Assembly: GCF_001904615.1 (NCBI RefSeq) | Contig: NZ_MRBY01000014.1 | Location: 1 to 64,000, forward strand | Direction of reading: 5' to 3' | DNA from: [Limnothrix rosea] IAM M-220 | GTDB lineage: Bacteria > Cyanobacteriota > Cyanobacteriia > Cyanobacteriales > MRBY01 | DNA: 64,000 nucleotides | Shown here: in pieces, positions 225-27,036 of the stretch | Layout: the number at the start of each line of letters is the position of its first letter | Position numbering within the stretch: the stretch's first letter is position 1 | Notes under the pieces: model-generated | Told to the model about the DNA's origin: nothing | The model's input: only the letters and a program-made list of their open reading frames with translations | Database searches by the model: none | Position numbers and translations under genes: made by a program

Positions 225-2934
225 GTTTCAGTCCCGTGATCGGGATTTGATAGATCGAAAGAATACAAGCAGTGCAAAGCACCCTGATACCCGCTATGTT
301 TCAGTCCCGTGATCGGGATTTGATAGATCGAAAGTATGCCCTGCTTTGCCTAATTTGACCCAATAGTTGTTTCAGTCCCGTGATCGGGATTTGATAGATC
401 GAAAGGATGGGAACAGCAACAGGCCATCGTCCCAAACGTCAAGTTTCAGTCCCGTGATCGGGATTTGATAGATCGAAAGCTTCTAAGGCCATGGTTGTTC
501 TCAGCGCGCTGAGGTTTCAGTCCCGTGATCGGGATTTGATAGATCGAAAGGCATGCGTAAATGTCGTTAGGCGTGGCACTTTCCCCAGTTTCAGTCCCGT
601 GATCGGGATTTGATAGATCGAAAGCCCTACGTTCTTCCCTTTGATTACTAGACCTTCTGGGTTTCAGTCCCGTGATCGGGATTTGATAGATCGAAAGGTG
701 GGGGCTAAAAGGCATTGGTGGGCTAATAAGAGTTTCAGTCCCGTGATCGGGATTTGATAGATCGAAAGAATTTCTGAAGGCGATCGCCAAATGTTTAACG
801 ACTGGTTTCAGTCCCGTGATCGGGATTTGATAGATCGAAAGCTTTTGAGCCAAAATCATAAATCTCAACTCTTAGGTTTCAGTCCCGTGATCGGGATTTG
901 ATAGATCGAAAGGAAGTGGCGATCGCCCAAGAGAAAGAGAAAGAAGCGTTTCAGTCCCGTGATCGGGATTTGATAGATCGAAAGAACAATGCCCACAATC
1001 GTAAACAATACTGATCTAGTTTCAGTCCCGTGATCGGGATTTGATAGATCGAAAGTTTTACGTCTTCCATAACTTTCCTTGGTTTCTTCATTGTTTCAGT
1101 CCCGTGATCGGGATTTGATAGATCGAAAGGTCGTAGCCGTTGAGGGGACTGGGATTGGGGTAAGTTTCAGTCCCGTGATCGGGATTTGATAGATCGAAAG
1201 AGGCTACTGGAGAATCGTTAGCCGTTGTTGGTGATATGTTTCAGTCCCGTGATCGGGATTTGATAGATCGAAAGGAAGCGTTTACCGAGGCGGGGCACAT
1301 CCTCTCTGGTTTCAGTCCCGTGATCGGGATTTGATAGATCGAAAGTTAGCAAGGTCATCAATAAATTTTTCTAGCTCCTCGTTTCAGTCCCGTGATCGGG
1401 ATTTGATAGATCGAAAGACCGAAACGTGTGGGAAGCTTTCTGAATTTGAGCAGTTTCAGTCCCGTGATCGGGATTTGATAGATCGAAAGTCTCATTTTGG
1501 GTAGACCCCCTACCCAATTTAGCCCGTTTCAGTCCCGTGATCGGGATTTGATAGATCGAAAGCTTTAAAGCGTGACCTCGATGGCGATCGCCAAGATGGT
1601 TTCAGTCCCGTGATCGGGATTTGATAGATCGAAAGCTGGCGGTCTTTCCGTCCGGAATTTTGACGATACGTTTCAGTCCCGTGATCGGGATTTGATAGAT
1701 CGAAAGTTGGTCGGTTTTAATGAGTTGCCCGCCCCTATCCAAGTTTCAGTCCCGTGATCGGGATTTGATAGATCGAAAGGTAGTACCTTCGTTCCATCAT
1801 CTGCTTCTGTAAAATGTTTCAGTCCCGTGATCGGGATTTGATAGCTCGAAAGATACCCAAGATCCAGCCAACCCTTTGCCGATCTGGTTTCAGTCCCGTG
1901 ATCGGGATTTGATAGATCGAAAGATTGAAAGCTGAACTGGAAACAGCGATAAATACTCAGTTTCAGTCCCGTGATCGGGATTTGATAGATCGAAAGCGCT
2001 CGAACCTAGAGAATTTAATATCAATGGCGCTGTTTCAGTCCCGTGATCGGGATTTGATAGATCGAAAGGAGAAGAGTGAAGATAGTTGACACAAGAAAAA
2101 TCCGTTTCAGTCCCGTGATCGGGATTTGATAGATCGAAAGCTAAGAGTAAATTCGTATCAGCTCTAAATCGCATGTTTCAGTCCCGTGATCGGGATTTGA
2201 TAGATCGAAAGTTGAAGCGGCGATCACCGATGCCACGTCCGAAGCCGAGTTTCAGTCCCGTGATCGGGATTTGATAGATCGAAAGCGCTCGAACCTAGAG
2301 AATTTAATATCAATGGCGCTGTTTCAGTCCCGTGATCGGGATTTGATAGATCGAAAGGGGATATTTATTACAATGCATGGCGGCGTTTCTGTCGTTTCAG
2401 TCCCGTGATCGGGATTTGATAGATCGAAAGTACCCGTTTTCTTTTTTAAGGGCTTTTAAAGTAGCGTTTCAGTCCCGTGATCGGGATTTGATAGATCGAA
2501 AGTTTCCACAGAGGGTCGAATAACTATGGGTGTGAGGTTTCAGTCCCGTGATCGGGATTTGATAGATCGAAAGCGTCACCTTCAACATGAATTTTAGGGT
2601 CAAAATCTTGTTTCAGTCCCGTGATCGGGATTTGATAGATCGAAAGCTATTGAAGCTTTTGAGGCCGATTTTAGTGAATTTGTTTCAGTCCCGTGATCGG
2701 GATTTGATAGATCGAAAGATGGGAAGAAAAAGGTGGTAGAGTTCGTATTCTGGTTTCAGTCCCGTGATCGGGATTTGATAGATCGAAAGTTCTTTGCATA
2801 AGCCCACCAATGCCCCCGCGAATAGTTTCAGTCCCGTGATCGGGATTTGATAGATCGAAAGCAGATAGGGGCGGAGGGGCGATCGCCAACATCACAGGTT
2901 TCAGTCCCGTGATCGGGATTTGATAGATCGAAAG

Positions 2935-5108
2935 CAGCGAGTTCTAGAGTTTAAGGACACAATAAAAGGTTTCAGTCCCGTGATCGGGATTTGATAGATC
3001 GAAAGCAACAGGCGGTGGGCTACAAGACCCGACGACTACCGTTTCAGTCCCGTGATCGGGATTTGATAGATCGAAAGAATATTCCTGAGGCATCGCCGCC
3101 TTGCCAATGAGTAGTTTCAGTCCCGTGATCGGGATTTGATAGATCGAAAGTAGCGGCGCTGTTTTTTCTGCTGTAGCGTGGCTTGTTTCAGTCCCGTGAT
3201 CGGGATTTGATAGATCGAAAGTCTCCGCCAACCGTGTGCAATTCGTACTCTGCAATGTTTCAGTCCCGTGATCGGGATTTGATAGATCGAAAGTTGGCAC
3301 GATGCCTATCACCTGCACGACGGCGGTTTGCTCTGGTTTCAGTCCCGTGATCGGGATTTGATAGATCGAAAGTTAACTTATGGGTTGGTGGTGGTCTTTG
3401 AGGTAGTGTTTCAGTCCCGTGATCGGGATTTGATAGATCGAAAGAATCGCTCAATCTTTGCCATCAACACCAGCACAACAGTTTCAGTCCCGTGATCGGG
3501 ATTTGATAGATCGAAAGACTCATCAACATCTAAATGGAAGGGTTCCTTGTCTGTTTCAGTCCCGTGATCGGGATTTGATAGATCGAAAGGTTGCTATTTT
3601 TCTTGTTGGGACACATGTAGATCCGTTTCAGTCCCGTGATCGGGATTTGATAGATCGAAAGCTTAATCGAGTAATATGATCAAAGACCGAAGGCTGGTTT
3701 CAGTCCCGTGATCGGGATTTGATAGATCGAAAGAGTCATTCGTTGATTATTGTTCCCGATGAGAATTTGTTTCAGTCCCGTGATCGGGATTTGATAGATC
3801 GAAAGAAGAAGCTGAGTATAGTGCCATCCTTAAGGTTTTGGTTTCAGTCCCGTGATCGGGATTTGATAGATCGAAAGTGGACTTGGGTGATGGCCTAATT
3901 CGCACATTCGTGTTTCAGTCCCGTGATCGGGATTTGATAGATCGAAAGACTTGCACTCTGCATTATGCGGGTAGCGCCCAGCGAGTTTCAGTCCCGTGAT
4001 CGGGATTTGATAGATCGAAAGCAGCGAGTTCTAGAGTTTAAGGACACAATAAAAGGTTTCAGTCCCGTGATCGGGATTTGATAGATCGAAAGCAACAGGC
4101 GGTGGGCTACAAGACCCGACGACTACCGTTTCAGTCCCGTGATCGGGATTTGATAGATCGAAAGAATATTCCTGAGGCATCGCCGCCTTGCCAATGAGTA
4201 GTTTCAGTCCCGTGATCGGGATTTGATAGATCGAAAGTAGCGGCGCTGTTTTTTCTGCTGTAGCGTGGCTTGTTTCAGTCCCGTGATCGGGATTTGATAG
4301 ATCGAAAGTCTCCGCCAACCGTGTGCAATTCGTACTCTGCAATGTTTCAGTCCCGTGATCGGGATTTGATAGATCGAAAGTTGGCACGATGCCTATCACC
4401 TGCACGACGGCGGTTTGCTCTGGTTTCAGTCCCGTGATCGGGATTTGATAGATCGAAAGTTAACTTATGGGTTGGTGGTGGTCTTTGAGGTAGTGTTTCA
4501 GTCCCGTGATCGGGATTTGATAGATCGAAAGAATCGCTCAATCTTTGCCATCAACACCAGCACAACAGTTTCAGTCCCGTGATCGGGATTTGATAGATCG
4601 AAAGACTCATCAACATCTAAATGGAAGGGTTCCTTGTCTGTTTCAGTCCCGTGATCGGGATTTGATAGATCGAAAGGTTGCTATTTTTCTTGTTGGGACA
4701 CATGTAGATCCGTTTCAGTCCCGTGATCGGGATTTGATAGATCGAAAGCTTAATCGAGTAATATGATCAAAGACCGAAGGCTGGTTTCAGTCCCGTGATC
4801 GGGATTTGATAGATCGAAAGAGTCATTCGTTGATTATTGTTCCCGATGAGAATTTGTTTCAGTCCCGTGATCGGGATTTGATAGATCGAAAGAAGAAGCT
4901 GAGTATAGTGCCATCCTTAAGGTTTTGGTTTCAGTCCCGTGATCGGGATTTGATAGATCGAAAGTGGACTTGGGTGATGGCCTAATTCGCACATTCGTGT
5001 TTCAGTCCCGTGATCGGGATTTGATAGATCGAAAGACTTGCACTCTGCATTATGCGGGTAGCGCCCAGCGAGTTTCAGTCCCGTGATCGGGATTTGATAG
5101 ATCGAAAG
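2935..5108. repeat. Perfect tandem duplication of 15 spacer-repeat units
   Basis: The segment 2935-4021 (1087 bp, 15 spacers and repeats) is repeated directly as 4022-5108. Both begin with the spacer starting CAGCGAGTTC and end after the spacer starting ACTTGCACTC. I saw no difference between the copies. The most likely origin is unequal recombination between repeats; an assembly artefact is possible. Confidence 0.95.
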
Positions 5109-6629
5109 AAGATTGGAGAAAATCAAATGACATTCGAACAAATGTTTCAGTCCCGTGATCGGGATTTGATAGATCGAAAGTGACCGTGGCAATTCTCGGA
5201 AGATTAGGGTAGGGGTTTCAGTCCCGTGATCGGGATTTGATAGATCGAAAGGAAGTATTACGCATTTTAGGTTTGGGAAAAACTCAAGTTTCAGTCCCGT
5301 GATCGGGATTTGATAGATCGAAAGAGTGGCTAGGCCTCGTATCTTCAAGGCATTAGCTGTGTTTCAGTCCCGTGATCGGGATTTGATAGATCGAAAGGGT
5401 TTAGCCCCGGTGGATTGATTTTGTCTGGATTGTTTCAGTCCCGTGATCGGGATTTGATAGATCGAAAGTCGAGCTTTTTGCCAGAGACAAAGCCGATGGC
5501 TGGGTTTCAGTCCCGTGATCGGGATTTGATAGATCGAAAGCTGAAGTTCAACGATACCTACCTGCTTAGCGTGAATGTTTCAGTCCCGTGATCGGGATTT
5601 GATAGATCGAAAGGAGAAGTCACAGACATATTTAATAGCAGGTGATTCGTTTCAGTCCCGTGATCGGGATTTGATAGATCGAAAGTCACCCTTACGAAGG
5701 GGGATGTTTACTGTTGGCTTGTTTCAGTCCCGTGATCGGGATTTGATAGATCGAAAGTATTCCAAGCGATTTGAGACTGGGGGTGCACTTGAGTTTCAGT
5801 CCCGTGATCGGGATTTGATAGATCGAAAGCTGTTTGTTGGCACTGAAGGGGGGTGTTACTTGTTTCAGTCCCGTGATCGGGATTTGATAGATCGAAAGAA
5901 GTTTAGGAAGATAACGACGCAAATACCCTAAGAGTTTCAGTCCCGTGATCGGGATTTGATAGATCGAAAGTTTTCAGTTGATTGAAAACAACTTTTATTC
6001 ATAATTGTTTCAGTCCCGTGATCGGGATTTGATAGATCGAAAGGTCAAAGCAGACGTTGAGCCCATGACCCAACGGGAAGTTTCAGTCCCGTGATCGGGA
6101 TTTGATAGATCGAAAGTTGTCGCAGGGGGCTGCGCCGCTATTAACTGCCGTTGAGTTTCAGTCCCGTGATCGGGATTTGATAGATCGAAAGGGTGGGGCT
6201 TTTTATTTGTTGCTTTTTCAGATTACGTTTCAGTCCCGTGATCGGGATTTGATAGATCGAAAGCTGTTGTTTCAATCTTTGTCTTCAGATTGGGTAGCGT
6301 TTCAGTCCCGTGATCGGGATTTGATAGATCGAAAGTTTCACTTGTTTTAGTCCCTTGCGAGGGTAGTAGAGTTTCAGTCCCGTGATCGGGATTTGATAGA
6401 TCGAAAGCTAGGGGCTGAGTGAAGGACTACCAATACTGCTGAGTTTCAGTCCCGTGATCGGGATTTGATAGATCGAAAGGTCAAAAGATCTAGACGAAGG
6501 CAGAACTTTTACAGGTTTCAGTCCCGTGATCGGGATTTGATAGATCGAAAGCCGGAAAATTGATAATTCTGATTGCAGTTTGATCGTCTCTCGTTTCAGT
6601 CCCGTGATCGGGATTTGATAGATCGAAAG

Positions 6630-6720
6630 TCGCCACCCCCACCCGTGAGAACGCCCAAGCATTTTCGATGATGGGGATTGCTAGTTTGAAGGGGGGAGTT
6701 TGTGATCGCCCAGTCAAATA
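6630..6720. other. 91-bp irregular interval between two CRISPR repeats
   Basis: The interval between the repeats at 6593-6629 and 6721-6757 is 91 bp, far longer than a normal spacer. Around 6660-6692 it contains a stretch (CGATGATGGGGATTGCTAG and following) that aligns loosely with the second half of the repeat, with several mismatches and gaps. It could be two spacers flanking a decayed repeat, or one oversized insert. It adjoins the 355-bp interval with the embedded gene. Confidence 0.5.
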
Positions 6721-6796
6721 GTTTCAGTCCCGTGATCGGGATTTGATAGATCGAAAGTTGATTCATAATTGGCAGTGTCAGTCTGCGGAGAAAACA

Positions 6797-7000
6797 ATGC
6801 AGTTTTTAAAAACGAAGAAAGGGAAAATTGTTGCTGGAATGACAGCGATCGCCATCGTGCTTACTGGGGTGTTTCTGTGGTCAACAACGCGACCATCCGG
6901 AACCTCTGTTGAGGTTGAAAACACCACGGAGGAATTGAGTGATGACCTTGAGGCTCTAAAGGAAGAGCAAAGGCGGCGCGAAGCTCAACGGCAAGATTAA
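6797..7000 (+). CDS. Small single-pass membrane protein encoded inside the CRISPR array
   Basis: The 67-residue product starts at the ATG at 6797, preceded six bases upstream by GGAG. It has a basic N-terminus (KTKKGK), one hydrophobic segment at about residues 11-29 (IVAGMTAIAIVLTGVFLW), and a highly charged helical tail (TEELSDDLEALKEEQRRRE). That predicts a membrane-anchored protein with a short coiled-coil tail. It lies in a 355-bp interval (6758-7112) between two intact repeats and is read against array transcription. A HIP1 site inside the gene (near 6844) suggests cyanobacterial DNA. The neighbouring repeat has TTGATA at 6743-6748 and a CATAAT lies at 6764-6769, a possible though short-spaced promoter. 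I do not recognise the family. Confidence 0.55.
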   Translation: MQFLKTKKGKIVAGMTAIAIVLTGVFLWSTTRPSGTSVEVENTTEELSDDLEALKEEQRRREAQRQD

Positions 7001-7112
7001 GACTCACTGGATGCCTCCAGCAATGCGAGATAATTAGATATAGAAACGAGGGCTAGATCCAGCTCCGTTTTGTCTATTTGCCGTTCTCCTTTCCCTAGGC
7101 ATTCCATAAGGA
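7001..7112. other. Remainder of the non-spacer insert in the array
   Basis: These 112 bp follow the stop of the small membrane-protein gene and end at the next intact repeat (7113). A minus-strand frame of about 36 residues runs from the ATG at 7107 down to about 6997, overlapping the end of the small gene convergently, but has no ribosome binding site. I saw no degenerate repeat or terminal inverted repeat marking the insert edges. Confidence 0.4.
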
Positions 7113-9889
7113 GTTTCAGTCCCGTGATCGGGATTTGATAGATCGAAAGTCGCCGCATGCATGGTTGGGATGACTGCCGTGTTTCAGTCCCGTGATCGGG
7201 ATTTGATAGATCGAAAGAGAAATCAGAGCGTCCGGGTTGCCCAACTCTACAGGGTTTCAGTCCCGTGATCGGGATTTGATAGATCGAAAGGCAGATTAAG
7301 TATTGATGCCACCTTGTTTGTTGGTGTTTCAGTCCCGTGATCGGGATTTGATAGATCGAAAGCCTCAATATAAGTTTCACTTAGTCGATGCAAATTCTCG
7401 TTTCAGTCCCGTGATCGGGATTTGATAGATCGAAAGTCTTCTCGGTACAAGTGCAGTTTCGCAAAAGTAAGTTTCAGTCCCGTGATCGGGATTTGATAGA
7501 TCGAAAGCTTCTCAAAGTCATTTGTTGCTGGGGTTTGAATCCTGTTTCAGTCCCGTGATCGGGATTTGATAGATCGAAAGGATAGCACGCAGGGTCGCCG
7601 AAGTCCGAAGAAAAGTTTCAGTCCCGTGATCGGGATTTGATAGATCGAAAGACAAACTTGTTAAAACATGGGGCACGGCTGATCCGTTTCAGTCCCGTGA
7701 TCGGGATTTGATAGATCGAAAGAAGCTACCGACCCACCAATCAAACCTCGGAATCGTGTTTCAGTCCCGTGATCGGGATTTGATAGATCGAAAGAGAGGA
7801 TAGCGCCGGGTGCCCTCTCGTTCATGTCGGTTTCAGTCCCGTGATCGGGATTTGATAGATCGAAAGCTTCCGTAGCCTGCGCAGCCTCCATCGTTTTAGC
7901 AAGTTTCAGTCCCGTGATCGGGATTTGATAGATCGAAAGCTGGCACAATGATGGGTTGGTTTTACTTGGGAGAGTTTCAGTCCCGTGATCGGGATTTGAT
8001 AGATCGAAAGTTGAATGTGGGAATGACCCCAACGGCTGGGGGCTGGTTTCAGTCCCGTGATCGGGATTTGATAGATCGAAAGGAACTTATTAAGGACATT
8101 GAATCGGCATCGTACCCCGTTTCAGTCCCGTGATCGGGATTTGATAGATCGAAAGGCTAATTTGCAGCGGCACTGGTAGCACTAAAAACTGTTTCAGTCC
8201 CGTGATCGGGATTTGATAGATCGAAAGAACAATCGAAGGTTACCTAAAGTTTTATTTAGCTGTTTCAGTCCCGTGATCGGGATTTGATAGATCGAAAGCA
8301 GCACTACAGCAGCAGAAGCCCAAGCGTACGCCCGTTTCAGTCCCGTGATCGGGATTTGATAGATCGAAAGAGCGCGCTATTACAATGGAATCAGCTTTTT
8401 GGGTGCGTTTCAGTCCCGTGATCGGGATTTGATAGATCGAAAGGAGACCGCCTACAGCTACCCCCTGTGTCGGCTAGAGTTTCAGTCCCGTGATCGGGAT
8501 TTGATAGATCGAAAGTTAACAGTTTTGCTCATATATTTTGCCAAGTAAGCTGAGTTTCAGTCCCGTGATCGGGATTTGATAGATCGAAAGTTTGTTCATG
8601 CGAATAACGAACAGATTATTGAATATGTTTCAGTCCCGTGATCGGGATTTGATAGATCGAAAGTCTCCCAGCACCGACTTCTGTTGATGGGTCGTTGTTG
8701 TTTCAGTCCCGTGATCGGGATTTGATAGATCGAAAGTCTTTGTATCTAAAATTGTGAGCCTGCCCCAAAAGTTTCAGTCCCGTGATCGGGATTTGATAGA
8801 TCGAAAGTCTATGTTTTCCTTCTCTATCAGTCGTGGGAACAGTTTCAGTCCCGTGATCGGGATTTGATAGATCGAAAGCTCAATATCTCATCTACTATAG
8901 CCTTCATTTTTGTTGTTTCAGTCCCGTGATCGGGATTTGATAGATCGAAAGTCTTAAATTTCCAAGTAGCTGTGTAAGATTCCCCAGTTTCAGTCCCGTG
9001 ATCGGGATTTGATAGATCGAAAGGCCAGATAGCAACGGTGAGGTTTACTGGAAGGTAGAGTTTCAGTCCCGTGATCGGGATTTGATAGATCGAAAGTGAC
9101 CAACGGCGACTGAGTTCTGTTTCGCTAACTCGTTTCAGTCCCGTGATCGGGATTTGATAGATCGAAAGACGCATGGGCAGCAGAGCGACGGTTAGAAGCA
9201 AAAGTTTCAGTCCCGTGATCGGGATTTGATAGATCGAAAGATAGCACGCAGGGTCGCCGAAGTCCGAAGAAAAGTTTCAGTCCCGTGATCGGGATTTGAT
9301 AGATCGAAAGGACTATTGCCTCAGCCCCCATCCTCTCCGAAGTCCCGTTTCAGTCCCGTGATCGGGATTTGATAGATCGAAAGTTAGAAATGTTTTTAAT
9401 CATTGATTTAGAGACCGTGTTTCAGTCCCGTGATCGGGATTTGATAGATCGAAAGTCTCGCGTTAAATCATTGGTTAAAATCCCTTTTAAGTGTTTCAGT
9501 CCCGTGATCGGGATTTGATAGATCGAAAGTGTTATGTCAGATAGGTTTGCTGTAGAAAGCAGATGTTTCAGTCCCGTGATCGGGATTTGATAGATCGAAA
9601 GGCAATTTTAGCCAATCACCACGAACGCAAGGGACTAGTTTCAGTCCCGTGATCGGGATTTGATAGATCGAAAGGATCCGGAATTGGTGGATGTGCCATA
9701 AAACCTCGTGTTTCAGTCCCGTGATCGGGATTTGATAGATCGAAAGTCTCTGTAGCAGGCGGTGGCGGCAATTACATCGTGTTTCAGTCCCGTGATCGGG
9801 ATTTGATAGATCGAAAGAGAGCTTTGACAGCTTGGCGGTGGAAGCTTTTTATGTTTCAGTCCCGTGATCGGGATTTGATAGATCGAAAG

Positions 9890-9967
9890 TGGCGCAATTA
9901 ACAACGACAAGGTAGCGGCTGGTGCTGGCATTGTCACCACAAAATTAGCGGACGGCGCAGAATTTAT
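9890..9967. other. 78-nt oversized spacer with a phage tail-fibre-like reading frame
   Basis: This interval between two intact repeats is 78 nt, about twice the usual spacer. One + strand frame is open across its whole length and reads ...NNDKVAAGAGIVTTKLAD..., which resembles the repeated 'AGAGI..SKL' segment common in phage tail-fibre and structural proteins. Because the frame is continuous, it looks like one long protospacer rather than two spacers fused by repeat loss. Confidence 0.7.
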
Positions 9968-12900
9968 GTTTCAGTCCCGTGATCGGGATTTGATAGATCG
10001 AAAGATTGTTTATAGCCTCGGCTATGGCGACGCAGCATTGTTTCAGTCCCGTGATCGGGATTTGATAGATCGAAAGTCACGACTCAAAGAGCACCAGTCG
10101 TTAATTAATCGTTTCAGTCCCGTGATCGGGATTTGATAGATCGAAAGTTGGCAGCGGCATACAATTCGGCGCGGGAATTTGGGTTTCAGTCCCGTGATCG
10201 GGATTTGATAGATCGAAAGATGCCAGCACTGAAACGTTCTCTTTCAGGTACAGTTTCAGTCCCGTGATCGGGATTTGATAGATCGAAAGCGTTGTCAATG
10301 GTACGAAGTGACAGAGGGGTTTGAACGTTTCAGTCCCGTGATCGGGATTTGATAGATCGAAAGAATTGTGGATGTGCCTTGGCTTATAGAGACTTTTAGT
10401 TTCAGTCCCGTGATCGGGATTTGATAGATCGAAAGTTTCTCTCGGTTGTTCGTAAATCTAGCCGTTTCATTGTTTCAGTCCCGTGATCGGGATTTGATAG
10501 ATCGAAAGTGATTATAATGGCGGGAAAGGATGCAACCATGCAGGTTTCAGTCCCGTGATCGGGATTTGATAGATCGAAAGCGTTGAGGTAAACGTGCTCG
10601 CTCCCAGAAGTGGGTGGTTTCAGTCCCGTGATCGGGATTTGATAGATCGAAAGCAACTGGAGCCACAAAAATAAGCCTAAGAGGGGCAGTGGGTGGTTTC
10701 AGTCCCGTGATCGGGATTTGATAGATCGAAAGCGGGACGGCTTCTCCGTATCTCAAGAAAGGCTTTGTTTCAGTCCCGTGATCGGGATTTGATAGATCGA
10801 AAGACATTGCCTCTAAAGTTAGTGATTGCTCTTCTGTGTTTCAGTCCCGTGATCGGGATTTGATAGATCGAAAGATGGAGGCTGCGCAGGCTACGGAAGG
10901 GGCGGCATTAGGTATGTTTCAGTCCCGTGATCGGGATTTGATAGATCGAAAGTGTTCAGAGCGTCTATTACTCGTTGTTCTTGCGTGTTTCAGTCCCGTG
11001 ATCGGGATTTGATAGATCGAAAGGAAAGTTTTGGGTCGCGCACCGCGTCATTAGAGATGTTTCAGTCCCGTGATCGGGATTTGATAGATCGAAAGACTAA
11101 CGGGAACTTTGAATAATTCGGGGCCATTTAGTTTCAGTCCCGTGATCGGGATTTGATAGATCGAAAGCAAGCCCCGGTCGCCAATTGATTGCACAGGGAT
11201 TGGTTTCAGTCCCGTGATCGGGATTTGATAGATCGAAAGTTTTGTTTCAACCCCCAAGTCACCAGCCGTAATCATGTTTCAGTCCCGTGATCGGGATTTG
11301 ATAGATCGAAAGTTGTTCAGGAAACACAGGTGGTTGTTGATGGGCGATGTTTCAGTCCCGTGATCGGGATTTGATAGATCGAAAGCCTGAAAGAGGTTGA
11401 GTCCTTGAATGAATCTGACAAAAGTTTCAGTCCCGTGATCGGGATTTGATAGATCGAAAGCAGGTTCCGGAGATAGATTTGCCAGATGGCGATCGCCTAG
11501 TTTCAGTCCCGTGATCGGGATTTGATAGATCGAAAGTGTTAAACAATTTGGACGGTTAAATTGTCAGACCAGTTTCAGTCCCGTGATCGGGATTTGATAG
11601 ATCGAAAGCCTAGGCGACTTGGCTATGTTGGCGGCATATTGGTTTCAGTCCCGTGATCGGGATTTGATAGATCGAAAGCTGTGGGAATCCCGGCGATCGG
11701 CACAGCGCCAATAGTTTCAGTCCCGTGATCGGGATTTGATAGATCGAAAGATTCGAGCATTGTTTCAAGTGCTCCAGCTAACGTGGTTTCAGTCCCGTGA
11801 TCGGGATTTGATAGATCGAAAGTTTTCACCGAGGCCGTAGTTGCCAACTGGAATTCGTTTCAGTCCCGTGATCGGGATTTGATAGATCGAAAGGCTGAAA
11901 ATCTAGCGCAGCGCTACGCGGGTCTGTGTTTCAGTCCCGTGATCGGGATTTGATAGATCGAAAGAATCGAATCTCTAAAGGATGAGCGCTCGGAGGCTAG
12001 TTTCAGTCCCGTGATCGGGATTTGATAGATCGAAAGCGACTATTGTTAAGTTGTTGGCGATCGCTAATAACTGTTTCAGTCCCGTGATCGGGATTTGATA
12101 GATCGAAAGCATAAGCTTTGTGCCACTTTTCAGGGAAGCGATCAGTTTCAGTCCCGTGATCGGGATTTGATAGATCGAAAGGAGAGAGAACAGCCTACAG
12201 ACTGCAATTAAGGGCATGTTTCAGTCCCGTGATCGGGATTTGATAGATCGAAAGTCCGCCACAGTCATCTGCCCACACTGCCGCGTTGAAAATTTCTTTG
12301 TTTCAGTCCCGTGATCGGGATTTGATAGATCGAAAGTTAGTGATTGTTGCAGTTGTTGTGGTCATATTTTTAGTTTCAGTCCCGTGATCGGGATTTGATA
12401 GATCGAAAGTTTTCTTTCAGGTACACAGACGGTCTCCCCTTCTGGTTTCAGTCCCGTGATCGGGATTTGATAGATCGAAAGTCATCTACGCTGGCGATCG
12501 CCGTCTCAAATGCTTTTAGTTTCAGTCCCGTGATCGGGATTTGATAGATCGAAAGAAGAGCTTTGCGCGGGTTAGCCCCCAGCCAATTTGTTTCAGTCCC
12601 GTGATCGGGATTTGATAGATCGAAAGGTTGCAGATTTGCGGGGGGAAATTCAACATGCACGTTTCAGTCCCGTGATCGGGATTTGATAGATCGAAAGCCA
12701 ACAGGATCGAATCGAAAGGCTAGAACAGCAACTGTTTCAGTCCCGTGATCGGGATTTGATAGATCGAAAGTAGGCGCAAATTGACAATCGCCATCACTTC
12801 ATTGGTTTCAGTCCCGTGATCGGGATTTGATAGATCGAAAGCTGACCCAAATGACGAGGTAAGCATTCATCGCAGTTTCAGTCCCGTGATCGGGATTTGA

Positions 12901-15530
12901 TAGATCGAAAGAAGTTTTTGGGGAGGTGATTGCTGATTTAATACAACTTTCGATGTTTCAGTCCCGTGATCGGGATTTGATAGATCGAAAGCCGAAGTTG
13001 AGCGTATCTGGAATGATATTGCTGAGATGGTTTCAGTCCCGTGATCGGGATTTGATAGATCGAAAGTCCTGACGGCTCCATTTGTCGAGGTCAAAGCCCG
13101 TGTTTCAGTCCCGTGATCGGGATTTGATAGATCGAAAGCCGCTTCCGACGATTGCGATCAACCGACAAGCCATTGTTTCAGTCCCGTGATCGGGATTTGA
13201 TAGATCGAAAGGAGACTTCGGGACGTTTGCCTGTGGCAGTCTGTTTGTTTCAGTCCCGTGATCGGGATTTGATAGATCGAAAGCTCGGATGGTTTGGGAG
13301 CTTAGTGGTGCGTGATGTCGCGTTTCAGTCCCGTGATCGGGATTTGATAGATCGAAAGATTGCGGTGGTCTTTGAACGCCTCTAAAAATGTCGCGTTTCA
13401 GTCCCGTGATCGGGATTTGATAGATCGAAAGGCTGAAATCTCGCGATCTAGTTCGATGATTTTGGTGGTTTCAGTCCCGTGATCGGGATTTGATAGATCG
13501 AAAGGAAGATTTTTACGTTCAACAACATCGCCTTTTAGTTTCAGTCCCGTGATCGGGATTTGATAGATCGAAAGCCAACTCTTCAGGCGTGTAGACAGGG
13601 GCGGAGAAGTTTCAGTCCCGTGATCGGGATTTGATAGATCGAAAGTCAACAAGATTGTTCCGCTAGTGCCTGATCATCATCGTTTCAGTCCCGTGATCGG
13701 GATTTGATAGATCGAAAGTCAGGTTAATCTTCATTTATGCTTCCCAACCATCAGTTTCAGTCCCGTGATCGGGATTTGATAGATCGAAAGTCTTGCTCCA
13801 AGAAAAGAGTGAAGCTGCCGAACTTATGTTTCAGTCCCGTGATCGGGATTTGATAGATCGAAAGATGGGTGGGTAGAATATTGAACAGAAGTTGTACGGG
13901 TTTCAGTCCCGTGATCGGGATTTGATAGATCGAAAGTTGCTGGTTTGCGCCGGGGGGCTATTGCTGACAAGTTTCAGTCCCGTGATCGGGATTTGATAGA
14001 TCGAAAGCAGCAACATTCCAAAACGAATAATTTCAAGCGATATGTTTCAGTCCCGTGATCGGGATTTGATAGATCGAAAGTTCCCCCATTCGTCGAACTG
14101 AGGGGCAAGCCACAGTTTCAGTCCCGTGATCGGGATTTGATAGATCGAAAGTTGATTTGCAGACATTCGGGAAAAGTGGCAATGGTTTCAGTCCCGTGAT
14201 CGGGATTTGATAGATCGAAAGCCCCACGGCGATCGCCACCCAATCAGGAACGGTCAGTTTCAGTCCCGTGATCGGGATTTGATAGATCGAAAGTATGGCT
14301 TTATCTAAATCGGTATTCGGAGAGGAGGGGAAAGTGTTTCAGTCCCGTGATCGGGATTTGATAGATCGAAAGAGTGGTGCAAGCTCACTCATAAGCAATG
14401 GCTTAAAAGTTTCAGTCCCGTGATCGGGATTTGATAGATCGAAAGATGGCAGTGAAGAAGGGAAAGAATGGCACAAACTTGTTTCAGTCCCGTGATCGGG
14501 ATTTGATAGATCGAAAGTCTTCCATCGCATCAATTTCTCGCTCTATCCCCTCGTTTCAGTCCCGTGATCGGGATTTGATAGATCGAAAGATGAACTTGAT
14601 TAAAAACATCTTCTTGCTAACAATGGTTTCAGTCCCGTGATCGGGATTTGATAGATCGAAAGTCTGGGATGATGCCGAGGGGGATTTTGACGATGAGTTT
14701 CAGTCCCGTGATCGGGATTTGATAGATCGAAAGCTGGCAAGATGTTTGGTTATCTTCTGAGCCTCCCACGTTTCAGTCCCGTGATCGGGATTTGATAGAT
14801 CGAAAGCAGAATAAATCCCGCGTCAATCAGCTCAGAATTTGTTTCAGTCCCGTGATCGGGATTTGATAGATCGAAAGAGGTCAAGAACTGCCAAAAGCTG
14901 TGGAAAACTTTTTTGTTTCAGTCCCGTGATCGGGATTTGATAGATCGAAAGCTGACGCTGTGGAACGTTTAGGGGAGGCACTACAGTTTCAGTCCCGTGA
15001 TCGGGATTTGATAGATCGAAAGAGGGAATTAAATTTGTTGACCTGCTTATCGTCAAGGTTTCAGTCCCGTGATCGGGATTTGATAGATCGAAAGTCGAGC
15101 TTGATGGTGGTGCTGGTCGTCGCCTCTACGTTTCAGTCCCGTGATCGGGATTTGATAGATCGAAAGCTGCCAACAAAGCTTTTTCTACAGCCTCTATAGC
15201 AGCGTTTCAGTCCCGTGATCGGGATTTGATAGATCGAAAGTTGGCAGGGACGGCGATCACCCTTACTGATGATGGGTTTCAGTCCCGTGATCGGGATTTG
15301 ATAGATCGAAAGTCTGCGGCGTTTAATGCGACCATCGGCTCCCTTGTGTTTCAGTCCCGTGATCGGGATTTGATAGATCGAAAGTTTCGTCGACAACTTG
15401 AGTATCGTCTAAATAAATTGTTTCAGTCCCGTGATCGGGATTTGATAGATCGAAAGTCTCGGTAATCTTCGAGGGGGAATTGCAACGTGCCTGGTTTCAG
15501 TCCCGTGATCGGGATTTGATAGATCGAAAG

Positions 15531-15740
15531 ACTGTTGTCTAGATCTGTTGATATGGTTGGGCTTGATCGATATTTTTGGCGAACCAGAAGATTCTAGCTT
15601 GAATTTGCAGCGATCGCCACAAAGATAGCCTGTTCCATATCCGCGAAAAGTATTGATTTATCAAGGTTCTGGAGATTTTGGCAAAGCCTCTAGGGTTTTT
15701 GACCTCGCTATAGGTTTGCCAATTTAATTTTAGAGGAACT
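15531..15740 (-). promoter_or_regulatory. CRISPR leader
   Basis: This is the non-coding, A/T-rich 210 bp between the stop of cas2 and the first (youngest) repeat. A related motif occurs three times: TTTTTGGCGAACC at 15573-15585, TTTTGGCAAAGCC at 15676-15688, and in inverted orientation GGTTTGCCAATTT at 15713-15725. These may be adaptation or promoter elements. On the minus strand, TTGATA followed after 17 bases by GATATG is a weak candidate promoter for the pre-crRNA. The leader role follows from position and repeat orientation; the motif functions are inference. Confidence 0.8.
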
Positions 15741-16034
15741 TTAGAGAATAATACTACCAGGCTCTTCAGGTTTTGTTGTGCCATAGGCGATCGCCTTTTT
15801 GACAGCAGTAGCATCGAGAACATAAATACAGACAGCATCTTCATCGGGTTTAATTAACTTTTCGATAGTGGTTTGTAGCTGGGCAAATTGCTTTGCTGTG
15901 AGAAAACATTCAAAGACACTAAATTGTTTCCACCTACCATAACCTGATAACAAATCAAACAATCTTTTACGACGCTTATCACCCGCTTTTGTAGAAGGCA
16001 AATCGTAGATTACAAGATACAATAATTTAGTCAT
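15741..16034 (-). CDS. cas2: CRISPR-associated endonuclease Cas2
   Basis: The 97-residue product has the Cas2 ferredoxin-like start LYLVIYDLPSTKAGDKRR with the conserved Asp after beta-strand 1, followed by VFECFLTAKQF. Cas2 dimers form the core of the Cas1-Cas2 integrase that inserts new spacers at the leader end. The gene is last in the cas operon, directly beside the leader. The gap to cas1 holds a lone block of TATCAGGTATCAG repeats just upstream of its ATG, and no convincing Shine-Dalgarno sequence is visible. Confidence 0.95.
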   Translation of the reverse strand: MTKLLYLVIYDLPSTKAGDKRRKRLFDLLSGYGRWKQFSVFECFLTAKQFAQLQTTIEKLIKPDEDAVCIYVLDATAVKKAIAYGTTKPEEPGSIIL

Positions 16035-16037
16035 TTT

Positions 16038-16074
16038 AGGTATCAGGTATCAGTTATCAGTTATCAGGTATCAG
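16038..16074. repeat. Solo TATCAG(GT/TT) repeat block between cas1 and cas2
   Basis: About five tandem copies of TATCAG-type heptamers fill the start of the cas1-cas2 gap, in the same orientation as the blocks at 17102-17175 and 18234-18274. Unlike those blocks it has no four-helix-bundle gene or inverted partner, so it may be a remnant of an excised element or a separate repeat expansion. Confidence 0.75.
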
Positions 16075-16122
16075 TAGAAAAAAATAATGCTGAGATATCT
16101 GAAAAGTATTACTATTTCCCTT

Positions 16123-17100
16123 TTATCTAATGATTAGTGGTTCATAAATGATGCCTTCTTGAAGGTGGCGGGCTAATAGTCTCGCTTGTAGTTCAATGGC
16201 ACGGCGATAGGTGCATTTGTATTTAAAGGTTGGGTGCTTAAATTCTGAAGAAAGTTTGCGATCAAAGGCCGACAAAAAGACTTTGCAAGCATCATCTTTG
16301 AGGCGATAAGCCCCTAGGCTTTCAGTAAAATCTTTAGGCTTGATTTCTTTTTGTTTTAGAACAGTAAGCACGACGCTGTCGGCAACCAATGAGCGAAACT
16401 CTTCCATTAGATCTAGTACCATGGCGGGCTGTCCTCTGGTAGTTTCGTGGAGAAAACCGATGTAGGGATCGAGTCCGGCAATGTGAGCGGCGGCGGTTAA
16501 TTGAGTGCGTAATAAGCCATAACCAAAGCTGAGTAGGGCATTGACAGGATCGGTGGGAGGGCGACGGAAACGCCCAGTAAATTCCCAATCTTTGCCAAGC
16601 ATATCTTGCCAGCAAGCGAAATATTCCCTCGCGGCTAATCCTTCGACACCACGTACTTCATCGATAGAATGTTTTTGTAAAACGAGTTTTTCACGGCCTT
16701 TAAGGGGATTTTCTTTTTGCCCACGGCGATAAAGTAAATTGTATTGATTGTGAATTTTTCCTCTAACAATAGATTTCACAATTTCTAAGCGTTGATTAGG
16801 ATCTTCATGGGCACGAAATTGAGCTAATCGTAACTGACCATTGCGGGATTCATTAGGTAAAGCCGAGCCGACGTATTTCCCAAATCGAGATAAATAATGC
16901 ACGGGTAAACCGAGTTCGAGGGCATATCCTAGGGCTTCCCCTGTGACACTGGGATATCCTAGTAAGACAATATCTTCTAAGATTTGGGCGGGAATAGATT
17001 GCTTTTTCCAGTTGCCATCTTCTTGTTTTAAGGCAATGTTAAAAGCTTCATGTTTTTTGCTCAATACGGCATCGGGCTGAGTCAAATATAAAGTAGTCAT
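16123..17100 (-). CDS. cas1: CRISPR-associated endonuclease/integrase Cas1
   Basis: The 325-residue product has normal Cas1 length. The C-terminal all-helical catalytic domain shows NALLSFGYGLLRTQL, then GFLHETTRGQPAMVLDLMEEF, carrying the conserved His and acidic metal ligands. It integrates spacers together with Cas2, and Cas4 trims and selects the pre-spacers. The ATG at 17098-17100 follows directly on a tandem repeat block, so any native ribosome binding site has been displaced; translation may depend on upstream elements of the operon. The stop at 16123 is separated from cas2 by 88 bp. Confidence 0.97.
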   Translation of the reverse strand: MTTLYLTQPDAVLSKKHEAFNIALKQEDGNWKKQSIPAQILEDIVLLGYPSVTGEALGYALELGLPVHYLSRFGKYVGSALPNESRNGQLRLAQFRAHEDPNQRLEIVKSIVRGKIHNQYNLLYRRGQKENPLKGREKLVLQKHSIDEVRGVEGLAAREYFACWQDMLGKDWEFTGRFRRPPTDPVNALLSFGYGLLRTQLTAAAHIAGLDPYIGFLHETTRGQPAMVLDLMEEFRSLVADSVVLTVLKQKEIKPKDFTESLGAYRLKDDACKVFLSAFDRKLSSEFKHPTFKYKCTYRRAIELQARLLARHLQEGIIYEPLIIR

Positions 17101-17101
17101 G

Positions 17102-17175
17102 TCAGTGAACAGTTATCAGTGAACAGTTGTCAGTGAACAGTTATCAGTGAACAGTTATCAGTGAGCAGTTAGTAG
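17102..17175. repeat. Left inverted-repeat block of four-helix-bundle cassette 1
   Basis: About five units of CAGTGAACAGTTAT occur in tandem directly upstream of the cas1 start. The block at 17621-17678, on the far side of the four-helix-bundle gene, is in the opposite orientation (AACTGTTAACTG), so the two could pair as a long imperfect stem in the operon mRNA. Confidence 0.8.
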
Positions 17176-17192
17176 TTTTTATTTGTCTGCTG

Positions 17193-17567
17193 TCAGGATT
17201 TGGAATTTATGCGGGTTTTCTTAAGAATAGAAAAAAGAATTTTTGCAATTTCATCAGCGTCTTTAAAAAGGCTTTCTGCTGCTTTGATTTGAAAGTATCC
17301 TGTGTCCTTGAGAAGAGATATCCAGTATTTTGTTTCTAGGCACTCTTTATAAGCAATAGAGACTTTTGCTGAAAAATCATTGGTAGAAATTGCACCTTGA
17401 GCTTCAGCGAGATTGGCCCCAATGGATGTACCACTTCTTAAAAACTGCTTCGATAAAATGTACTCTTTTTTTTCATCTATCAAATATCTATATGCATTCA
17501 CAATGCGAATTGCAAATTGATAAGCCTTACTATAGGCAATACTTTCTTTTTCTAAGTTGCTTTCCAT
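17193..17567 (-). CDS. Four-helix-bundle protein (S23/IVP family), copy 1
   Basis: The 124-residue, mostly helical product contains the family signature SKQFLRSGTSIGANLAEAQGA, followed by a helix with SIAYKECLETKYWISLL. Such proteins were first described from 23S rRNA intervening sequences, and relatives act as accessory proteins (Avd) of diversity-generating retroelements. Their biochemical role is mostly unknown; a positively charged pentamer that binds nucleic acid is known for Avd. It is a close paralogue of the product at 18288-18659 and lies between cas4 and cas1 on the same strand. No reverse transcriptase or template/variable repeat is nearby, so a retroelement role is unsupported. 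It is probably part of an inserted cassette rather than a core Cas protein. Confidence 0.9.
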   Translation of the reverse strand: MESNLEKESIAYSKAYQFAIRIVNAYRYLIDEKKEYILSKQFLRSGTSIGANLAEAQGAISTNDFSAKVSIAYKECLETKYWISLLKDTGYFQIKAAESLFKDADEIAKILFSILKKTRINSKS

Positions 17568-17620
17568 TTAAGGGTTCTCCATTTTATAAATCATCTTCGA
17601 GATTTAAGAGTCATTAAGTA

Positions 17621-17678
17621 TTCACTGTTAGCTGCTCCCTGATAACTGTTAACTGTTAACTGTTAACTGTTAACTGTT
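17621..17678. repeat. Right inverted-repeat block of cassette 1, overlapping the cas4 3' end
   Basis: The block reads TTCACTGTTAGCTGCTCCCT, then GATAACTG and four TTAACTG units. Read on the minus strand it gives repeated TTAACAG. It encodes the last residues of Cas4 (QLTVNS) and its TAA stop, so the native cas4 end was probably rewritten by this repeat. Confidence 0.8.
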
Positions 17679-18234
17679 TAATTTCTTTCGGTAAACAAAG
17701 CCGCTTCAGGCTACAGTCTTTACATTTTTTTTGATTTTTTAATGGCAAAGGCATAGGGCGATCGCCTGCGAGATGTGCTGCCATGATTGCTTGTTCGGTC
17801 AGGTTACGGAGTGTTTGGGTAAATTCAACTTGTTGGCGACGACGATTACCGTAATAAAAGATTTCGCCGTAGGGAATTTCTTGACCTGTTTTTTCTTCGA
17901 GGCATAATGCCGCCGCACAAAGCTGAAAATGGTCGTTTAAATGTTTCCCCATTTTTCCTTTTTTGTATTCGAGGGGAATTAATAAACCATCGGTTTCTTC
18001 GACTGCATCGATAATGCCTTTAACTTTTAGGCGATCGCTCCAAACCCATTGTTGTCGATGAATCCGAGTATCTCCTTCAGTTGATGTGCCAGCTTCATTA
18101 ATATTGCGATGGAGATGAGTGCCACGAATAATATGGTCATTAATTTCCATTTCTCCAAGGACATATTCAAAATAAAAACGTCTTTGGCAATATTCCCAAG
18201 CGTTTAAATATGCAAGCGGTAAGTAATTATCCAT
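17656..18234 (-). CDS. cas4: CRISPR-associated exonuclease Cas4
   Basis: The 192-residue product is a RecB-like nuclease. It shows an N-terminal Cys (WEYCQRRFYFEY), the nuclease motif GIIDAVEETDG...LIPLEYKKGK with the Asp, Glu and Lys residues, and a C-terminal cluster CKDCSLKRLC for the 4Fe-4S centre. It processes pre-spacers and helps choose PAM and orientation with Cas1-Cas2. The start ATG abuts a TATCAG repeat block with no visible ribosome binding site. The last six codons and the stop come from another repeat block. The gene is thus framed by the two inserted four-helix-bundle cassettes, but its catalytic motifs look intact. Confidence 0.95.
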   Translation of the reverse strand: MDNYLPLAYLNAWEYCQRRFYFEYVLGEMEINDHIIRGTHLHRNINEAGTSTEGDTRIHRQQWVWSDRLKVKGIIDAVEETDGLLIPLEYKKGKMGKHLNDHFQLCAAALCLEEKTGQEIPYGEIFYYGNRRRQQVEFTQTLRNLTEQAIMAAHLAGDRPMPLPLKNQKKCKDCSLKRLCLPKEIKQLTVNS

Positions 18235-18274
18235 ATCAGGTATCAGTGAACAGGTATCAGTGAACAGGTATCAG
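18234..18274. repeat. Left inverted-repeat block of cassette 2
   Basis: TATCAGG followed by units of TATCAGTGAACAGG runs up to the cas4 start codon. The block at 18683-18750 is its inverted counterpart. Confidence 0.8.
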
Positions 18275-18287
18275 ACGGAGTGTAAGT

Positions 18288-18659
18288 TCAAGTGCGATTT
18301 ATGCATGTTTTTTTGAGGATTGAGAATAGGATTTCACTAATCTCATCTACGTCTTGAAAAAGGCTATCAGCTGCTTTCTCTTCGAAGTAACTTGTGTCTT
18401 TTAAAAGAGATATCCAATATTTAGTTTCAAGGGATTCTTTATATGCAATTGAAATCTTTGCGGAGAAGTCATTGTCTGAAATTGCACCTTGAGCTTCTGC
18501 ACAATTCGCTCCAATAGATGTTCCACTTCTTAAAAATTGCTTCGATAAAACATATTCTTTTTTCTCTTCTGTTAAATACCGGTAAGCATTCACTACCCGA
18601 ATCGCAAACTGATAAGCCTTCTGATAAGACAAACTTTTCTTCTGTAGACCTTCATCCAT
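18288..18659 (-). CDS. Four-helix-bundle protein (S23/IVP family), copy 2
   Basis: The 123-residue product carries the same signature as copy 1 (SKQFLRSGTSIGANCAEAQGA; SIAYKESLETKYWISLL). The two are about three-quarters identical by eye and differ mainly in the first 12 residues and the C-terminal third. Divergence at this level suggests that the duplication is not brand new and that both copies are kept as coding genes. It lies between cas6 and cas4 on the operon strand. Function is unknown; a link with CRISPR activity is only by location. Confidence 0.9.
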   Translation of the reverse strand: MDEGLQKKSLSYQKAYQFAIRVVNAYRYLTEEKKEYVLSKQFLRSGTSIGANCAEAQGAISDNDFSAKISIAYKESLETKYWISLLKDTSYFEEKAADSLFQDVDEISEILFSILKKTCINRT

Positions 18660-18682
18660 AATGCTTCATTTACTGTTTCCTT

Positions 18683-18750
18683 TTCACTAAAAACTGATAC
18701 CTGTTCACTGATACCTGATACCTGGTACCTGTTCACTGATACCTGTTCAC
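18683..18750. repeat. Right inverted-repeat block of cassette 2, overlapping the cas6 3' end
   Basis: Units of TTCACTGATACCTG run between the four-helix-bundle gene and the end of cas6. On the minus strand the last codons of cas6 (VNRYQ) and its TGA are read from GTGAACAGGTATCAGTGA, that is, from the repeat itself. Confidence 0.8.
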
Positions 18751-19572
18751 TTGTCCCATGCCCATCGGTGTTTTACGCCCTACTCCTGCGTAGAAAGAAA
18801 AGTTGGCTAAGGTATTAATTTGTTTAATAATTTGAGGATCAACATCACCTAAAATACTGAAGCTGATATCACCCATACAGCCGATAAATTTACTGCGCTT
18901 ATCACCAACTATTTCAGTTTTAATATTGAAGAAACTAGGATAGATAGATTCAAAAATAGTCTCTGTAAATTCAAAGGGATTTTGACTATATTGATTCCAT
19001 CGTTTAAGTAAACTACGAAAAATCAAGTCTCGGTCAGGCAATGAAACATCATATTTTGATTTTCTAAATGCTGTGGGTGTGCAAAATCTAAAGTTTATTT
19101 TTTTCGCCGCTTGAGATGTTTGACTATCTGTTCCATCAAGGGCTTGTTCATAGAGCTTTTCATAGGAAATAAAATTTGCCCATGGCTGTTGGGGCTGGGG
19201 ATTAGAAAGAATACTGACAATATCGAGCCGAGCCGAGCCGAGTTGCCATGGTTCCTGACGATTAACGTTTAGCCAGAGATGGGCAAGTTTTCCGAATAGA
19301 CTGTCATCCAGTAATGTAACCCGCCACCAACAAGGGGTTCCGGCGGCGATCGCCTTTCTATAGCTCCACTGCAAAAGTTTACGATTAAGCTTGATCTGCA
19401 CAGGGCTAAGGGTAAAAGCTTTTTCGCTTTGCTGCTGGTGTAAAGAGGTTCCTAATTCTTTATCAACGGAACTGACTAAATCGAGAAATAAAGCATGAAG
19501 ATTACGACCGTTTAAATGGGTTTTTAAAAGGGGCGATCGCGGCACAAAATTAATGATTAAACTGTAGGGCAT
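18733..19572 (-). CDS. cas6: CRISPR-associated endoribonuclease Cas6 (type I-D)
   Basis: The 279-residue RAMP-family protein ends with the glycine-rich loop FYAGVGRKTPMGMGQV typical of Cas6. It cleaves pre-crRNA at the base of the repeat hairpin, leaving an 8-nt 5' handle, and in type I-D belongs to the effector complex. Conserved His candidates for catalysis lie near the N-terminus (LLKTHLNGRNLHALF). It starts four bases after the csc1 stop, so the two are translationally linked. The last five residues come from the inserted TGAACAGGTATCAG repeat, just after the G-loop, so the fold should be unaffected. Confidence 0.92.
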   Translation of the reverse strand: MPYSLIINFVPRSPLLKTHLNGRNLHALFLDLVSSVDKELGTSLHQQQSEKAFTLSPVQIKLNRKLLQWSYRKAIAAGTPCWWRVTLLDDSLFGKLAHLWLNVNRQEPWQLGSARLDIVSILSNPQPQQPWANFISYEKLYEQALDGTDSQTSQAAKKINFRFCTPTAFRKSKYDVSLPDRDLIFRSLLKRWNQYSQNPFEFTETIFESIYPSFFNIKTEIVGDKRSKFIGCMGDISFSILGDVDPQIIKQINTLANFSFYAGVGRKTPMGMGQVNRYQ

Positions 19573-19576
19573 AAAC

Positions 19577-20302: not shown

Positions 20303-20316
20303 CTGATTTCACCTCT

Positions 20317-21306: not shown

Positions 21307-21360
21307 AATTAAGTTCCTGAAATGTGTAAGAAAAATAAAAGGCGAGATGAGAAAAAATTG

Positions 21361-24717: not shown

Positions 24718-24756
24718 GGTTTAAGGTTGAAAATATTAAAGTGAAATTGAGCCAAC

Positions 24757-26940: not shown

Positions 26941-27036
26941 CGTTAGAGAAAGTGTACGTAAATCCTTGTTGATATCTATTCTAGCTGCAAAAATTAAAGG
27001 TGAAAGTACAAAAAATGCGAGAGTGTACGTACAAAT
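26941..27036. promoter_or_regulatory. Divergent cas/regulator promoter region with TGTACGTA operators
   Basis: This 96-bp intergenic region has GTGTACGTA at 26952-26960 and GTGTACGTACA at 27023-27033, the latter containing the perfect palindrome TGTACGTACA. The second lies only a few bases before the regulator ATG, the first near the cas3 start. A third TACGTACA is inside the regulator gene at 27239-27246. Such paired sites fit autoregulation and control of cas by the WYL protein. This is an inference from symmetry and position. Confidence 0.6.

Follow-up and report, generated by a model that had tools for sequence, protein, structure and literature searches.

In a type I-D CRISPR array, one interval between two intact repeats is ten times as long as an ordinary spacer and holds a small open reading frame (ORF) that looks coding. 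This 355-bp interval is best regarded as a spacer or insert of unusual length that carries a gene. We favour tentatively, and stop short of calling probable, the explanation that it is an untrimmed fragment of foreign DNA that was integrated as a spacer, with the gene as a passenger. Supporting this explanation are the exact repeats on both sides, a phage-like 78-bp interval in the same array, coding-like codon scores in the three outsize intervals (0.351, 0.208 and 0.214) and the single copy of the 355 bp. We infer the foreign origin of the fragment, its untrimmed integration, the fate of its transcript and the lack of a role for the ORF in its present place.

Three outsize intervals in a type I-D array

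The window, by which we mean the whole stretch of 64,000 nucleotides that was analysed, is the start of contig 17 in a draft genome of 92 contigs, and the array begins 224 bp from the contig start (Table 1). All but one of its repeats are identical (205 of 206), and the sole variant differs by a single mismatch at position 1816. The repeats enclose 205 intervals, 202 of which measure 31–45 bp with a peak at 35 bp; Table 1 of PMC3575380 gives 31–41 nt for the type I-D spacers of Synechocystis CRISPR1. The three outsize intervals are numbers 89 (91 bp), 90 (355 bp) and 129 (78 bp). An apparent interval of 107 bp was rejected, being merely the product of a one-mismatch variant repeat.

The 210-bp gap between the youngest repeat and cas2 fits the size given for cyanobacterial I-D leaders in the accessible text of PMC10212523 (202–220 bp), and on this ground transcription and spacer ageing probably run from high to low coordinates. 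The crRNA strand would then be the minus strand and the 67-aa ORF would be antisense to the pre-crRNA. The original prediction had described one intact repeat with a long interval on each side of it; this was borne out: the repeats that start at 6593, 6721 and 7113 are all exact. It had also placed about 89 older and about 116 younger spacers on either side of the 355 bp. The first figure holds, while the second should be 115, the 355-bp interval being number 90 of the 205.

Table 1 Features of the array and its surroundings in the window (strand: + forward, - reverse,. none assigned).
Feature	Position	Strand	Remarks
Type I-D CRISPR array, 206 repeats of 37 bp	225-15530	-	strand is the probable crRNA strand
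Exact repeat, older side of the 91-bp interval	6593-6629	-	
91-bp interval	6630-6720	.	frame +2 open throughout; codon score 0.208 (coding-like)
Exact repeat separating the 91- and 355-bp intervals	6721-6757	-	
355-bp interval	6758-7112	.	single copy; no direct repeats, no terminal inverted repeats
Shine-Dalgarno-like GGAG, 6 nt before the ATG	6787-6790	+	
67-aa ORF, ATG to TAA	6797-7000	+	basic N-terminus, hydrophobic segment, charged C-terminal part; orphan
Open frame of 37 codons	6997-7112	-	stop overlaps the stop of the 67-aa ORF; coding score 0.014 (weak); no homologue
Exact repeat, younger side of the 355-bp interval	7113-7149	-	
78-bp interval	9890-9967	.	phage tail-protein-like peptide in frame +1
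Candidate leader, 210 bp, youngest repeat to cas2	15531-15740	-	
cas2, cas1d, cas4, cas6, csc1, csc2 and cas3' of the type I-D locus, plus putative cas10d	15741-27054	-	named by family scan, cas10d excepted
Putative cas10d, 1118 aa	21361-24717	-	named from place and length alone

Sub-threshold matches to the Rfam family CRISPR-DR52 lie on the minus strand within 6500-7300, where one further Rfam match was taken as chance. In the plasmid collection the repeats found their closest matches in type I-D arrays on four Picosynechococcus plasmids. The whole array had no match at E 0.1 in the phage collection, and a repeat-pattern search of GTDB genome contigs returned none.

Several other features of the locus can be recorded here. 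An exact tandem duplication at 2935-5108 repeats 15 consecutive spacers (38–52 equal 53–67) with a shift of 1087 bp, and spacers 25 and 29 are identical. The spacers at 7581 and 9241 differ by one base at one end: either one protospacer was acquired twice with a one-base slip, or one base was lost later. Two similar four-helix-bundle genes (TIGR02436), at 17193-17567 and 18288-18659, are interleaved with cas1, cas4 and cas6 in the cas operon. In the four sibling plasmids that are annotated, the gaps separating cas1d, cas4 and cas6 are about 10 bp or less, which leaves no space for TIGR02436 genes.

Content of the 355-bp interval

The 355-bp interval has the intact flanking repeats of an ordinary spacer and lies far outside the 31–45 bp range. 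Its GC content (0.47) is close to the spacer mean (0.466), and its predicted RNA structure has a z score of -0.87. It occurs in one full copy in its own genome, the remaining matches there being 15–31 bp long. We found no direct repeats in it, and its inverted pairs are all internal, none terminal. A Pfam scan of the interval gave nothing over the cut-off, transposase families included (best E 0.041). With its single copy, lack of direct repeats and internal inverted pairs, the interval is unlike an IS or a MITE. Nor does it appear to consist of several spacers in a row around a recognisable decayed repeat: its gapped likeness to the repeat is at chance, with 1598 of 2000 shuffles and 529 of 713 genome pieces scoring as high. 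In a k-mer comparison for a relict leader, the only 11-mers common to the interval and 15531-15740 sit at a HIP1 site. This site, which had been pointed out originally, is indeed present at 6845 and is uninformative, as 8 other spacers have one.

DNA searches returned no source for the interval. Among 60 relatives, matched stretches covered at most 52 query bases, and the best match (E 0.0017) extends over 24 bp beside the HIP1 site. Phages and plasmids gave only the repeats and one 23-bp stretch, in a Sinorhizobium plasmid, which was rejected as chance.

The 67-aa ORF looks coding, given its host-like codon score and the rarity in shuffled sequence of its length together with a Shine-Dalgarno-like site. 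An ORF of 67 or more codons from an ATG arises in 287 of 2000 shuffles of the interval, and an ORF from any start that matches the longest observed (80 codons) arises in 256 of 2000. An ATG ORF that long plus a Shine-Dalgarno-like site arises in 21 of 2000. The ORF frame scores 0.214 bits per codon, against 0.286 ± 0.110 for coding chunks of the host taken from genes in the window; the 99th percentile of wrong-frame scores, 0.2125, is about the level of the ORF. The hydrophobic segment has a Kyte-Doolittle value of 2.1 over residues 11–29. The description of a gene-like ORF with a ribosome binding site, read against the array, therefore stands, its antisense placement depending on the probable direction of transcription.

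No credible relative of the 67 residues came to light in its own genome, relatives, genomes of the class, phages, plasmids, viral contigs or GTDB genomes; for these collections, one half of the refuting condition named in the original prediction, a lack of homologues of the small protein, therefore holds. The second-best match in its own genome has E 0.51. Of the 60 relatives, 23 (own genome included) have a match at E of 1 or less, the best outside its own genome being E 0.038. Phages and plasmids yielded no credible homologue at the protein level, and pattern searches gave 83 stretches in viral contigs and 593 in GTDB genomes, none of them confirmed. Among 388 genomes of the class one other match appeared (E 0.008, 27% identity within a 330-aa frame), which we took as chance. 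The ORF matched no known toxin or antitoxin family; its best Pfam match (E 0.041) is below the cut-off and PADLOC assigned none. The nearest PHROG families are spanins (E 0.015 and 0.024), which beat 9 of 9 segment shuffles (best 0.12) and are not significant. A single-sequence AlphaFold2 model shows two helices, residues 3–31 and 40–62, with a mean pLDDT of 65, too weak for use as a search query.

The 78-bp and 91-bp intervals

The 78-bp interval is probably one contiguous over-long piece of phage DNA. Its peptide matches two viral contigs with 84% identity over 19 aa; the corresponding 57 bp exceed any ordinary spacer in this array, which is what argues for a single contiguous fragment. The contigs were found with a degenerate pattern that fixes 9 of the 19 residues, and 7 of the 10 others agree. 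In L037 the matched region is part of a 738-aa ORF that resembles a tail protein, and a weak PHROG match of the interval is also to a minor tail protein (E 0.19). The best-frame codon score, 0.351, is coding-like. Likeness to the repeat is at chance (1761 of 2000 shuffles). Matches to three relatives over 24 bp were dismissed as chance, one of them lying in a long frame read as Mrp, and so were matches of the 78- and 91-bp peptides to tail proteins of a mycobacteriophage and a Gordonia phage (E 6–9).

The 91-bp interval is harder to read: it may be an over-long spacer, or two short spacers around a decayed repeat. Its middle (about 6669-6690) aligns with the inner repeat at 18 of 23 positions with one gap; 35 of 2000 shuffles and 4 of 719 window pieces score at least as high, with three intervals tested. 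This alignment is suggestive only; a repeat that once separated two spacers of about 27 bp may have decayed there. Such spacers would be shorter than the array minimum of 31 bp, and the 206 repeats have one substitution in all. No source of the 91 bp was matched in the collections searched, and a 19-bp match was rejected as chance.

Long intervals in related arrays

To place these intervals in context, we searched 388 genomes of the order for Cas1d, which gave a match in 206. From these we took 136 stretches, mostly beside cas1d and with long contigs preferred among the matches listed; 109 arrays in 108 stretches had at least 8 repeats of 34–40 bp. These arrays comprise 5106 intervals, 29 of them over 60 bp, and six of the 29, all in L196, contain runs of N. 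The 23 N-free intervals are spread over 19 of the 109 arrays: seven carry a transposase, one a YefM-YoeB pair, one cas6, one cobS, one a ParA-like gene and four an ORF without a family (L151, 396 bp; L165, 282 bp; L096, 645 bp; L207, 753 bp), with eight others. Inserted genes in these other arrays occur on either strand.

In three of the four Picosynechococcus plasmid arrays, a nucleotidyltransferase gene and a DUF86 gene stand between repeats, in intervals of 989 bp, except that one of the three measures 2177 bp and also has an IS4 transposase. The pair lies between the most leader-distal repeat and the remainder of the array. In L071, the one scanned (L071:5944-6932; the same interval is present in L073 and L074), the DUF86 gene is HepT-like. 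The nucleotidyltransferase-HepT pair may stabilise the array or the plasmid. The YefM-YoeB pair occupies 740 bp (L082:10563-11302) with 5 repeats on one side and 57 on the other, and the I-D array of L117 holds three different transposase-bearing inserts.

The nearest parallel is L151:6234-6629, where 396 bp between exact repeats hold a hydrophobic frame of 116 codons of no named family. This frame has two weak matches in other genomes (30%, E about 8e-4). A match of its ORF to two viral contigs was rejected, as it covers 25 aa in a 325-aa frame with no further likeness.

Genes inside I-D arrays are thus not unique to this genome. The original prediction had called a gene inside an array unusual, and this claim is weakened: N-free intervals longer than 60 bp are present in 19 of the 109 arrays surveyed, several with genes that are not all transposases, and three of four sibling plasmids carry a toxin-antitoxin pair there.

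The present array may be rich in long intervals. Clean intervals of 60–130 bp number 2 of 205 here versus 2 of 5106 in the survey (L188 and L174; Fisher p 0.008), and those of 60–400 bp number 3 of 205 versus 5 of 5106 (p 0.003). If the 91-bp interval is left out, the first class falls to 1 of 205 (p 0.11) and the second to 2 of 205 (p 0.027). Because the length classes were drawn after inspection of the data, and the L188 and L174 intervals contain 10-nt pieces of their own repeats, we treat the excess as no more than an indication. The 91- and 355-bp intervals are neighbours, an arrangement with a chance of 0.029 for two out of three; it would support a single episode of poor trimming only on condition that the 91 bp are truly a long spacer.

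Origin of the 355-bp interval

Under the explanation we favour, a phage or plasmid fragment would have been taken up by Cas4-Cas1-Cas2 without being trimmed to about 35 bp. Integration at the leader-repeat junction would leave a perfect repeat on each side, and the 67-aa membrane-protein gene would have been carried in as a passenger. Cas6 cleavage would then release a long precursor, and ruler-like trimming of its 3' end could leave one ordinary crRNA, consisting of the tag and the sequence from 7112 downward.

What has been published on adaptation makes such a route plausible. In type I-D, according to the accessible text of PMC10212523, each end of the prespacer, with or without the PAM, is handled by its own half-complex, the non-PAM end is trimmed by a host nuclease, and spacers are mostly 35 nt long and lengthen by 1 nt on loss of Cas4. 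With separate end handling and trimming by a host nuclease, a failure of trimming is a plausible event. Type II-A Cas1-Cas2 without a trimming partner integrates unprocessed substrates in vitro (PMC8034620, in the part available), and V-A spacers shift longer without Cas4 (PMC9419969, likewise in part). It is these II-A, V-A and I-D precedents that lead us to favour untrimmed integration. In Synechocystis the crRNAs are cut back to fixed lengths although the spacers vary (accessible text of PMC3575380), and a spacer of as much as 355 bp could thus still give one usable crRNA.

Several observations count against it. The 355 bp are ten times the norm, and the Cas4 effects in the accessible parts of these publications are small. 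Searches of relatives, phages and plasmids by DNA, of phages and plasmids by protein, and of viral contigs and GTDB genomes by protein gave no source for the interval, and the array as a whole had no match in the phage collection. The 91 bp contain a repeat-like stretch, without them the excess of long intervals shrinks, and the 84% match of the 78 bp includes residues fixed by the search pattern. Genes enter other arrays by other routes, and the most similar intervals, those of L151 and L165, sit in arrays without other clean long spacers. The original prediction had spoken of a cargo gene. As a function this is unproven; an over-long spacer accounts better for the 78-bp interval and may account for the 355-bp one.

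Entry of a cassette by recombination or on a small mobile element, replacing or splitting one or more spacers, is conceivable, though we consider it somewhat unlikely. What speaks for it is that relatives carry such cassettes: the nucleotidyltransferase-HepT pair in three of four plasmid arrays, YefM-YoeB, the seven transposase inserts, cas6, cobS and the ParA-like gene, besides the family-less ORF intervals of L151, L165, L207 and L096. The 355 bp themselves, however, show no transposase family, no terminal inverted or direct repeats, a single copy and no homologue of the ORF, and they border exactly on repeats; a cassette would also leave the 78-bp interval unexplained.

We give little credence to the proposal that the ORF encodes a working and perhaps toxic membrane peptide silenced by antisense pre-crRNA. 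The interval would then be an addiction device comparable to a type I toxin-antitoxin pair, and cells that lost or silenced the array would die or grow more slowly. The probable antisense placement, small size, single hydrophobic segment and good Shine-Dalgarno site would suit such a device, and toxin-antitoxin pairs are present in sibling arrays. A 10-nt seed match to one crRNA lies upstream of the ATG, against a mean of 0.28 such matches in control stretches, and at the Shine-Dalgarno site another crRNA matches over 8 nt beside a GTT PAM. But the 10-nt match is accompanied by GCC, not GTN, and the match with GTT pairs at only 13 of 34 positions. The interval and its borders hold seven 8-nt matches versus 4.0 ± 1.9 in controls, and of the seven one is the interval itself and two lie in the flanking repeats. 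The ORF is without relatives and so gives no sign of selection, its one promoter-like match is at the level of shuffled sequence (0.8), and inserted genes elsewhere lie on either strand. CRISPR-regulated toxin-antitoxin modules (CreTA) offer the obvious model: in the accessible parts of PMC9458426 and PMC8501985, CreT is an RNA toxin repressed by Cascade through a degenerate-repeat guide RNA. Like CreTA, the present ORF is a small gene beside type I repeats. Unlike in CreTA, the flanking repeats here are perfect, and no seed match with a GTN PAM and further pairing was found.

Fusion of ordinary spacers whose separating repeats were deleted or decayed is equally hard to credit for the 355 bp. 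Broken repeats do account for long intervals elsewhere (113 and 109 bp on pAQ4, one in L079, 219 bp in L113 and 198 bp in L207), and the repeat-like middle of the 91 bp points the same way. Yet likeness to the repeat is at chance for the 355 and 78 bp, one coding frame spans more than half of the 355 bp, and the viral match of the 78 bp crosses its middle. Even for the 91 bp, the testing of three intervals, the implied spacers below 31 bp and the nearly unmutated repeats speak against it.

Finally, unrelated sequence joined through the identical 37-bp repeats during assembly, which the draft state of the genome and the nearby contig start would allow, is a very improbable source of the interval, given its spacer-like GC content and host-like codon use and the resolved 1087-bp duplication, which a naive short-read assembly would tend to collapse.

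Discussion

The 355-bp interval shares with ordinary type I-D spacers its intact flanking repeats, the same cas1d-cas2-cas4 set and apparently coding DNA. It differs from them in length, as do the 78-bp and perhaps the 91-bp interval of the same array, and in holding a whole small ORF. The HepT and YefM-YoeB intervals of sibling arrays likewise place genes between I-D repeats, but those are recognisable toxin-antitoxin pairs in intervals two to three times as long, whereas here there is one orphan ORF for which no partner turned up; the HepT interval is leader-distal and the 355-bp interval lies mid-array. Closer in kind are L151 (107-aa ORF in the 116-codon frame) and L165 (66-aa ORF), which resemble it in size, in their hydrophobic ORF without a Pfam or PADLOC family, and in near-perfect flanking repeats (0–1 mismatches), a likeness by description and not base by base. 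Their ORFs run with the crRNA strand as judged from the repeats, unlike the 67-aa ORF, and the L165 interval is at the end of its array, unlike the 355-bp interval.

Among the titles listed in a literature search, most subscription journals aside, none dealt with genes captured as over-long spacers, and genes between repeats are not mentioned in the accessible parts of PMC3710099 or PMC12737573. A bolder reading, which we regard as distinctly unlikely, is that I-D adaptation integrates gene-sized foreign DNA and that the array at times behaves like an integron, capturing whole small genes with a perfect repeat on each side, the membrane peptide captured here, placed antisense, being expressible or addictive.

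If Cas1-Cas2-Cas4 can integrate fragments of ten times normal size, spacer length in type I-D adaptation would be gauged less strictly than thought, and CRISPR arrays would be a possible entry point for whole genes. Genes that lie between cyanobacterial I-D repeats, toxin-antitoxin pairs included, could stabilise the array against deletion.
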